Below the pieces are notes generated by a model that saw only the letters and a program-made list of their open reading frames with translations, did not search any database and was not told the DNA's origin. The translations under genes and the position numbers were made by a program. From a virus, in the IMG/VR virus record IMGVR_UViG_3300009008_000053, positions 1 to 52,106 of that record: 52,106 bases of DNA; one strand, 5' to 3'. Positions 48,390 through 52,106 of this stretch are shown one piece after another. Positions within the stretch are counted from its first letter, which is position 1. Each line of letters starts with the position of its first letter.

Positions 48390-48419
48390 TTGACATGGTG
48401 GGCTTAGGTGTGGTATAAT
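48390..48419 (+). promoter_or_regulatory. Promoter P1 of the RNA region
   Basis: TTGACA at 48390-48395, TATAAT at 48414-48419, 18-base spacer, GTGTGG before the -10 box. Both boxes are perfect. Confidence 0.9.
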
Positions 48420-48463: not shown

Positions 48464-48493
48464 TTGACAGAAGACGGTTCGACGTGGTATAAT
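48464..48493 (+). promoter_or_regulatory. Promoter P2 of the RNA region
   Basis: TTGACA at 48464-48469, TATAAT at 48488-48493, 18-base spacer, CGTGG before the -10 box. Two perfect promoters 74 bases apart suggest very high transcription of the RNA cluster. Confidence 0.9.
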
Positions 48494-48700: not shown

Positions 48701-49193
48701 CCTTTTCCCATGGGAGTGGGACTGCTGTTTGGTCGGTACAGCATAAACAATCGATCGCGGAAAGTGGGCAAAGTCGCGTTACTAAATCGTTCATCCTGGT
48801 GCTGGTACTAGCTAAGAGCACTAATTAACAAAACGGGATTGAGTTCCTGGTCTTAGCTTAGGGGGAGTAACGATTGCTTCTAGACTTTCGTCTTCCTCGT
48901 TTTTGGGTCACAAAAAGTGGCCGATCGTTTAAAGCCGAAGTGCACTACGATTGGCAGAGGGAGCGTTACCCTCGTGATCCACCTGAAGTAGGAGATGTGA
49001 GTTCAAGTCTCACTTAAGGTGGCTGCTGTAAACTGGAAAAATGTCGGTTCAATTCCGACTTAAGGCAGTCATTCGTATCGTCTAATGGATAAGACACCTA
49101 CACATTTTGTTTCGGGGGTGAACTAGATTCGATCTCTGTGAACAAAGGTTTGCGGGGAGACTTGGGAGCATTGCCCAACACCTCCAAAATTTT
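48701..49193 (+). ncRNA. 490-base stretch of tRNA-like and other structured pieces, no complete canonical tRNA
   Basis: I see a TGCTGT/ACAGCA hairpin near 48722; T-arms GTGAG-TTCAAGT-CTCAC (48997-49013) and GTCGG-TTCAATT-CCGAC (49043-49059), both followed by TTAAGG; a canonical D-arm GTCT-AATGGATA-AGAC at 49080-49095; and two 5-bp hairpins with loop AGCGTTA (48957-48973) and AGCATTG (49162-49178). The latter are followed by GTGATCC and CACCTCC, which pair with GGGTCAC (48905) and GGGGGTG (49114) at tRNA distance. No coding frame of note. Confidence 0.5.
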
Positions 49194-49276
49194 GCCAGCA
49201 CGGCGACGAGGGCGAGTCGCGGCAGACTGTAAATCTGTTCCCGATGGGTGAGTAGGTTCGAATCCTTCTGCTGGCA
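49194..49276 (+). tRNA. tRNA-Tyr (anticodon GUA)
   Basis: Acceptor GCCAGCA/TGCTGGC, D-stem GCGA/TCGC, anticodon arm GCAGA-CTGTAAA-TCTGT, long variable arm (class II, correct for Tyr), T-arm GTAGG-TTCGAAT-CCTTC, discriminator A. Confidence 0.93.
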
Positions 49277-49502: not shown

Positions 49503-49576
49503 GCCCCTGTAGCTCAGCGGAAGAGAGCAATCGGTTTCTACCCGATAGGTCGAGCGTTCGAATCGTTCCAGGGGTG
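49503..49576 (+). tRNA. tRNA-Arg (anticodon UCU)
   Basis: Acceptor GCCCCTG/CAGGGGT, D-stem GCTC/GAGC, anticodon arm ATCGG-TTTCTAC-CCGAT, T-arm GAGCG-TTCGAAT-CGTTC, discriminator G. Reads AGA, a common phage tRNA. Confidence 0.92.
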
Positions 49577-49580
49577 CCTA

Positions 49581-49650
49581 GCGTCACATGGCTGAAAATG
49601 ACGCCCTCACGGCCTGTGGGGTGGTGTTAGAGCACCAAGCAAAAGCCATG
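49581..49650 (+). ncRNA. Pseudoknot RNA, copy 1
   Basis: P1 GCGTCA (49581-49586) with TGACGC (49599-49604). The loop strand CATGGCT (49587-49593) pairs with AGCCATG (49644-49650), giving an H-type pseudoknot. Between them lie hairpins CCTCAC/GTGGGG and TGGTG/CACCA, then an A-rich linker. Copy 2 follows at once with the same plan and compensatory base changes. Confidence 0.7.
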
Positions 49651-49656
49651 CGTTTA

Positions 49657-49729
49657 GCGTTAATCGGCTGAAAGTAACGTCCCTCCATCTGCGGGGGTGA
49701 GGGGGAACCCCTTCGTAAAAAAAGCCGAT
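49657..49729 (+). ncRNA. Pseudoknot RNA, copy 2
   Basis: P1 GCGTTA (49657-49662) with TAACGT (49675-49680). ATCGGCT (49663-49669) pairs with AGCCGAT (49723-49729). Inner hairpins CCCTC/GGGGG and GAGGGG with CCCTTC, then an A-rich linker. GGCTGAAA is shared with copy 1. It ends 5 bases before tRNA-Thr. Confidence 0.7.
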
Positions 49730-49734
49730 GTTTA

Positions 49735-49809
49735 GCCTCGCTAGCTTAAATGGACTAAAGCGACTGTCTTGTAAACAGTTAGATTTCGGTTCGAATCCGA
49801 AGTGAGGCT
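49735..49809 (+). tRNA. tRNA-Thr (anticodon UGU)
   Basis: Acceptor GCCTCGC/GTGAGGC, D-stem GCTT/AAGC, anticodon arm ACTGT-CTTGTAA-ACAGT, T-arm TTCGG-TTCGAAT-CCGAA, discriminator T. Confidence 0.93.
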
Positions 49810-50036
49810 CCTCGTTATCGACAGTGTGTAGCTTAAGTGTAAAGTCCCCACGTTGGAGTGGGGGGATACTATAGCGTCGTCGCTGGTCGCACGATTGATA
49901 ACGGATCTCATGGCCACTTGATGGGGGAAAGGCTTAATTACCCTAGTACCCTGGAAGCTGCAGACTCTTAATCAAATAGGTAGCCCTCCGCAACGACGAT
50001 TGGGTTCATTGATGAGTCAAGTCGCGTGAGATTTTT
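49810..50036 (+). ncRNA. 227-base structured gap between tRNA-Thr and tRNA-Lys
   Basis: CGTTATC (49813-49819) pairs perfectly with GATAACG (49897-49903) and encloses a tRNA-like D-arm (TA-GCTT-AAGTGTA-AAGT) and the hairpin CCCCAC-GTTGGA-GTGGGG, an anticodon-arm-like stem with a 6-base loop holding UGG. The rest includes CTCTTAA (as in tRNA-Lys loops) without a matching stem. No T-loop and no coding frame. It may be a degenerate tRNA plus unknown RNA. Confidence 0.4.
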
Positions 50037-50274: not shown

Positions 50275-50287
50275 CCTAAAACATTGT

Positions 50288-50410
50288 CGTTTCAAGCAGT
50301 TTTCTCCAGATTCTTTAGTTAGAGAAGTAATTTGTGAAAGTAACATGGTATACCTTTGTCCTAACCATCACAAAGAGCTAGACAAAGGTAAACTTGATTT
50401 AAGCGAGTGA
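50288..50410 (+). pseudogene. HNH endonuclease C-terminal remnant 1
   Basis: An open stretch of about 40 codons ends TGA 50410 inside the next tRNA. It encodes RFKQFSPDSLVREV followed by NMVYLCPNHHKELDKGKL, the LCPNxH end of HNH homing endonucleases. The N-terminal catalytic part is missing, so it is a decayed fragment. It also contains a 10-bp inverted repeat, TACCTTTGTC and GACAAAGGTA. Confidence 0.6.
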
Positions 50411-50606: not shown

Positions 50607-50636
50607 TTGACCGAAGATCCTGAGATGTGGTATAAT
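50607..50636 (+). promoter_or_regulatory. Promoter inside the tRNA cluster
   Basis: TTGACC at 50607-50612 and TATAAT at 50631-50636, 18-base spacer, ATGTGG before the -10 box, as at the other early-type promoters. It drives the small genes that follow and probably the distal tRNAs. Confidence 0.85.
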
Positions 50637-51698: not shown

Positions 51699-51821
51699 CT
51701 AACAGACATTAAAGATTTCCCAGAGACTGCACTTTTGGGAGAAGTCAACTCACCAGACAATTTGGTTTTATTATGCCCTAACTGTCATTGGCTTTTTGAT
51801 AGAGGAAAACTAAAAATTTAA
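51699..51821 (+). pseudogene. HNH endonuclease C-terminal remnant 2
   Basis: About 40 open codons ending TAA 51821, one base before tRNA-Asn. Encodes IKDFPETALLGEVNSPDNLV then LLCPNCHWLFDRGKLKI, the zinc/HNH end of a homing endonuclease (CPNCH, DRGK). It aligns with remnant 1 over the whole length. No start codon or catalytic N-terminus is present. Confidence 0.65.
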
Positions 51822-52075: not shown

Positions 52076-52106
52076 GGCGCTGATGACTAATGGCTGGTCG
52101 CGAGAC
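52076..52106 (+). tRNA. Possible 5' part of another tRNA at the window edge
   Basis: GAC-TAATGGCTG-GTC has the form of a D-arm with the conserved GG, preceded by seven bases that could be an acceptor strand. The rest is outside the window. Confidence 0.35.

Follow-up and report, generated by a model that had tools for sequence, protein, structure and literature searches.

The window analysed here is the whole virus record of 52,106 bases, which belongs to an unclassified tailed phage with a contractile tail. The phage genes identified in it include baseplate wedge, family A DNA polymerase, primase and SbcCD-like genes; the genome is incomplete, and the window stops at position 52106. Seventeen tRNA genes on the plus strand form an array from about 48.6 kb to the window end. 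Judged by eye, most of the tRNA genes between 48600 and 52106 stop at an encoded CC and lack the A that completes CCA.

Within this array, tRNA-Arg(UCU) (49503-49578, plus strand) and tRNA-Thr(UGU) (49735-49811, plus strand) are separated by 156 nt, and this spacer is occupied almost wholly by two copies of one module. Many of the other spacers in the array are just a few nucleotides long. The sequence-only reading that drew attention to the locus had placed the module between tRNA-Arg and tRNA-Thr, and both flanking tRNA calls proved correct. Upstream of the array, a consensus scan identified a sigma-70-type promoter with an extended -10 element (TTGACA-18-TATAAT) at 48464-48493 on the plus strand, with 12 of 12 consensus matches and a TG ahead of the -10 box. 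A similar promoter lies at 48390-48419, also upstream of the array, and repeat families D6 and D11 add to the evidence. Two promoters with perfect hexamers precede the spacer on its own strand. Similar promoters with an 18-nt spacer and an extended -10 (TGGTATAAT) occur three times before and within the array, at 48390-48419, 48464-48493 and 50607-50636.

The array holds further elements besides its tRNA genes. A 76-nt tmRNA-like element at 49114-49189 (plus strand) matches the full RF00023 model with 25.5 bits (E 1.2e-7; cut-off 47), a match that was not reproduced on searching 48940-49200 alone. The whole mRNA-like part and the pseudoknots are absent from this element. Its acceptor stem, GGGGGUG/CACCUCC, carries a G3-U70 type pair, its D loop is tmRNA-like, and its long stem has an AAAG cap where an anticodon would be. 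With a fold z of -2.4, the element resembles a stand-alone tRNA-like domain. Two tandem pieces of about 45-50 nt at 48979-49022 and 49021-49070 (plus strand) consist of an acceptor stem plus a T arm whose T loop is normal, and the D and anticodon arms are missing. They match tRNA weakly, at 14.6 and 13.4 bits, and their fold z-scores are -2.1 and -3.2. Similar C-terminal fragments of HNH endonucleases (HNH_2; ...LCPNxHxxxDxGKL) are encoded in two tRNA spacers at 50277-50410 and 51700-51821 (plus strand), directly 3' of tRNA genes and with the N-terminal part absent. Finally, the 225-nt spacer at 49812-50036 (plus strand) has no tRNA call and no Rfam match; its segment 49821-49885 folds well (z -2.8), and additional structure may lie beyond 49885.

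Architecture of the tandem module

Each copy of the module follows the order 5'-S1(6)-S2(7)-GAAAR-S1'(6)-hairpin(17)-hairpin(16)-linker(6 or 9, A-rich)-S2'(7). Copy 1 spans 49581-49650 and copy 2 spans 49657-49729, both on the plus strand. In copy 1, the S1 hairpin (49581-49604) pairs GCGTCA (49581-49586) with TGACGC (49599-49604) around a loop that consists of the S2 5' strand and GAAAA. S2 (49587-49650) forms the pseudoknot by pairing CATGGCT (49587-49593) with AGCCATG (49644-49650). Between the two helices lie a 17-nt hairpin 1 (49605-49621), a 16-nt hairpin 2 (49622-49637) and the linker AGCAAA (49638-49643), which is read directly from the sequence and runs up to the S2 3' strand.

Copy 2 repeats this arrangement. 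Its S1 hairpin (49657-49680) pairs GCGTTA (49657-49662) with TAACGT (49675-49680), the loop being the S2 5' strand and GAAAG, and its S2 (49663-49729) pairs ATCGGCT (49663-49669) with AGCCGAT (49723-49729). The 17-nt hairpin 1 (49681-49697) is followed by a 16-nt hairpin 2 (49698-49713), for which two registers are possible, with either a GGAA tetraloop or a GAA triloop. The A-rich linker, CGTAAAAAA (49714-49722), is 3 nt longer than that of copy 1. All of the P1 (here S1) and 7-bp pseudoknot helices proposed in the sequence-only reading are present at their positions in both copies, and the two inner hairpins and A-rich linker that it described are likewise seen in each, with the copies in register.

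The six nucleotides between the copies, CGTTTA (49651-49656), are the sole clear single-stranded joint (CGUUUA in the RNA), and GTTTA occurs again 3' of copy 2. S1 of copy 1 starts 2 nt past the CC with which the tRNA-Arg gene ends, and S2 of copy 2 ends 5 nt short of tRNA-Thr. Because the copies fit so tightly between these two edges, the spacer is nearly all structure.

S1 and S2 abut in both copies (L1 = 0 nt), and L2 is 5 nt in both. This L2 is tight across a 7-bp S2, and one pair may be frayed. On general pseudoknot principles, this geometry would suit stacking of S1 and S2 along an uninterrupted 5' strand while GAAAR spans the shallow groove of S2. The adenine-rich 3' linker resembles that of other pseudoknots with A-minor contacts.

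Covariation between the copies

The two copies align without gaps from S1 through hairpin 2; the linker alone differs, by 3 nt, and the shorter linker was filled out with N to fix the alignment register. Overall identity is 56%, with differences in 31 of the 70 aligned columns. The elements kept between the copies are the unpaired GAAA, the GGCT of S2, the initial CC of hairpin 1 (allowing a 1-base offset) and the AAAAGCC end.

Pairing survives this divergence almost entirely, as copy 2 retains 22 of the 23 pairs. Standard pairs fill 97.8% of the pair cells, compared with 39-54% when the 3' strands are shifted by 1-3 columns. Seven pairs have changed on both sides: one in S1, three in S2, one in hairpin 1 and two in hairpin 2. 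The H-type topology, in which a hairpin loop pairs with a downstream strand, is supported by covariation in both of its helices, with double changes in 3 of the 7 pairs of S2 and 1 of the 6 pairs of S1. When the 19 paired-column substitutions were placed randomly, at least 22 of 23 pairs were kept in 0 of 200,000 trials (mean 11.5); when the sites were fixed and the new letters drawn at random, the observed 22 of 23 was reached in 5 of 200,000. The tool's own shuffles, which have little resolution with two sequences only, gave 5 of 500. The earlier argument that compensatory change betrays a real structure is therefore borne out by the double changes, the retained pairs and the simulation.

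The paired cells also indicate the strand. They contain five G·U pairs on the plus strand versus a single A-C, which would be G·U if read on the minus strand. This points to a structure formed by tRNA-strand RNA and not to a DNA-level palindrome.

Nested minimum-free-energy folding, which is unable to display S1 and S2 simultaneously, did not predict S1, and the z-scores were weak (-1.1 and -1.5). The structural support therefore comes from covariation and not from folding energy. Moreover, a single S1/S2 arrangement of this type is not rare by chance in 52 kb, so the evidence lies in the tandem, in-register pair with its shared core. On these grounds, we regard it as virtually certain that the pseudoknot module is a real RNA structure. 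Because the module is compact and backed by internal covariation within one genome, the fold is already specific enough for testing.

Comparison with RNA families and search for relatives

No Rfam family matches the spacer at the gathering cut-off. With the threshold relaxed to E<=10, there was no tRNA or tmRNA match across 49560-49760 and no ribozyme, riboswitch or STAXI match in the spacer, and neither GOLLD nor ROOL was matched there. The spacer has no terminator-like site within it, and no gene or expression platform for a riboswitch lies downstream in it. The view that the module has no match to a known class is thus supported at both thresholds. The accompanying suggestion of tRNA mimicry is not: no such mimicry is visible in either copy, in keeping with the silent tRNA and tmRNA models.

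The best weak Rfam match, found in both copies, was to Chlorobi-1 RNA (RF01696), at 13.7 and 12.4 bits against a gathering cut-off of 50 bits. The likeness lies in two neighbouring hairpins with an A-rich stretch and then AGC after them. At the Chlorobium phaeovibrioides locus, however, the 3' AAAAGCGGC strand pairs with AGCCGC just 3' of it and is followed by a T run, forming a Rho-independent terminator. The final GCGGC of the Chlorobium RNA thus lies in the terminator, whereas the corresponding strand in the window pairs upstream and has no T run after it. With its A-rich GCGGC strand taken up in a terminator and no pseudoknot seen upstream of its hairpins, the Chlorobium RNA shows a likeness that is superficial; with scores below the cut-off and the A-rich tail a terminator arm in Chlorobium, homology was rejected.

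Four exact-pattern scans of IMG/VR, BLAST against a phage collection and model searches of about 110 phage records yielded no convincing relative. The exact pattern GCGTNANNNGGCTGAAANNNACG gave 21 matches in IMG/VR, 0 of them with S2. Patterns combining the core with AAAAGCC, or with an S1 variant, returned no relative among the matches listed, and a complete scan with the core and hairpin constraints gave 84 matches and no relative. After filtering, both GC-rich helices were found only in the window copies among the matches listed, the remainder being AT-rich or partial chance matches. Two IMG/VR contigs, L046 (around 476-570) and L136, both carry GGGAAG-GGGCT-GAAAAGCT-CTTCCC...AAAAAGCCC, which could form a pseudoknot of comparable topology; it lacks the hairpins and is not matched by our covariance model (R1).

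Model R1, built from both copies, recovered the two window copies as a positive control and found no third copy in the window. Searched against 50 + 50 records of baseplate-protein and polymerase kin, it gave no convincing match. A hit in phage FLC9 (19.5 bits) is antisense to an annotated gene and one in record G071 (16.4 bits) does not form hairpin 1; both are chance-like and were set aside. BLAST of the spacer against phages returned short stretches only. The best, of 27-28 nt with an E of 0.5, comes from Pseudomonas phage LP14 and does not include the pseudoknot. In that phage (record L263), a 27-nt intergenic stretch at 401-427 is near-identical to the copy junction (AGCAAAAGCCATGC.TTAGCGTTAAT).

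The phage itself is similarly isolated. A single-protein search with the DNA polymerase found no phage kin, the closest polymerases and baseplate proteins, from distant contigs, are about 25-30% identical in alignments, and two large phage proteins have no match at all. Building a covariance model from both copies had been proposed as a check on the module; it produced no homologue, which by that reading's own criterion would count against it, but this absence is weak evidence because the collections contain hardly any relatives of the phage and records very close to the window may have been outside the reach of the searches. The module is an orphan, present twice in a single incomplete phage genome.

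Proposed expression and function

To account for the locus, we consider the spacer a small non-coding RNA gene, made of tandem diverged copies of an H-type pseudoknot that carries two hairpins in its long loop. Taken as a whole, this explanation stands at about an even chance, and its parts differ in strength. Weighing against it are the restriction to two copies in an incomplete genome with no homologue found in the searches above, the unremarkable folding energy and the tight loop geometry. Transcription from the upstream promoters would carry the spacer together with the tRNA genes, and such co-transcription is very probable. Processing of the tRNA-Arg 3' end and an RNase P cut at tRNA-Thr, whose expected site would define the 3' end of the spacer RNA, would then free an RNA of about 156 nt, and a further cut at the unpaired GUUUA linker could yield two units of about 75 nt. 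Release as a discrete stable RNA appears probable on this arrangement. Because pseudoknots leave almost no unpaired ends, the RNA would be expected to resist exonucleases and to persist in the cell.

Once free, the RNA might bind a host protein and so act in trans, either as a decoy or, like an antitoxin, as an antagonist of a defence protein that binds or cleaves RNA. This role as a protein decoy is the function we favour, tentatively and at less than even odds, by analogy with known systems. We consider it rather unlikely that the spacer represents a novel class of phage RNA in which two pseudoknot units lie inside a tRNA operon, use tRNA maturation for their release and disable an RNA-binding defence protein of the host.

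The structure fits the spacer exactly between the mature tRNA ends, as would a cis-acting processing or spacing element that insulates the tRNAs from misfolding or halts exonucleases trimming the tRNA-Arg 3' end, the freed RNA itself being roleless. Many array spacers, however, manage with a few nucleotides, R1 finds no third copy in the window, and an element of this kind has no need for two copies with a conserved GGCTGAAA and linker. We therefore judge it unlikely.

In a more specific form of the decoy function, the phage RNA would mimic type III antitoxins of the ToxI/CptI/TenpI kind, and its excised units would be bound by a host endoribonuclease toxin and would block it. Type III antitoxins are tandem H-type pseudoknots, and CptI has an extremely short L1 (PMC5086642), which the L1 of 0 nt in both copies recalls. 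Phage PhiTE, according to the report on it, evaded ToxIN through RNA-based mimicry (PMC3475682), a precedent for the strategy. Tandem H-type units and an adenine-rich long loop are shared with ToxI, CptI and the PhiTE pseudo-ToxI. Unlike ToxI and CptI, the module measures about 76 nt per unit, its long loop bears two additional hairpins, there are two units only, and no toxin gene or terminator lies nearby; it also lacks an Rfam match. To our knowledge, this 76-nt period and the hairpins differ from known type III antitoxins. Where a type III antitoxin is followed by a toxin gene behind a Rho-independent terminator, here a tRNA gene follows copy 2, and no toxin family was found among the phage proteins scanned in the window, which ends at 52106. 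For a mimic, a neighbouring toxin gene is not expected, and its absence does not exclude one. On balance, this specific form is distinctly unlikely.

Conserved unpaired A-rich strands in compact pseudoknots are common in aptamers and ribozymes, and the module is a compact pseudoknot with a conserved unpaired GAAA and an A-rich strand, which would suit a new class of small ribozyme, cutting within the tRNA transcript, or of aptamer, sensing a ligand there. Against this stand the empty Rfam ribozyme and riboswitch searches at E<=10 and the lack of an expression platform or gene after the module, and we consider such an activity very unlikely. An HDV-like fold, which has the same P1/P2 topology, was rejected on inspection, because P3 is missing and the linker offers no consistent catalytic C. 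That the spacer is the relic of a tRNA-like or tmRNA-derived element in decay, or a plain duplication without function, is nearly excluded: reduced tRNA-like pieces do occur in the array, such as the tmRNA-like domain at 49114-49189, but the spacer has no tRNA or tmRNA match, and 22 of 23 pairs kept at 56% identity, with seven double changes, are not expected from neutral decay.

Comparison with known systems

Non-tRNA stable RNAs in phage tRNA clusters have been recognised since T4, and we know of no established role for them. A structured RNA in a phage tRNA cluster is in this sense already known, and there is a modest probability that the small non-coding RNA gene proposed here represents a new class of RNA. 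In T4, RNA C and RNA D (rnaC and rnaD; species 1 and species 2 RNAs) form a tandem pair of stable non-tRNA RNAs directly after tRNA-Arg, as here. These RNAs, however, are 119 and 139 nt long, contain no S1/S2 module in their helix lists and gave no R1 match in T4. Identity with them was rejected on the helix listing and the model search of T4: the genomic place is shared and the RNAs differ.

The STAXI motif is a pseudoknot found in tandem, with at least two repeats (PMC2864571). Tandem repetition is also seen here, in two copies, and is by itself insufficient to define STAXI, which is linked to DNA-handling genes, whereas the present module lies in a tRNA array. GOLLD and ROOL are structured phage RNAs of unknown function that often lie by tRNA islands (PMC12286853); they are far larger than the module described here and have other folds. 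Phage tRNAs themselves are described as counteracting host defences that target tRNA (PMC10264068, PMC11555353). If the module blocks a host defence, phage tRNA arrays would be linked to RNA-based counter-defence beyond their tRNAs.
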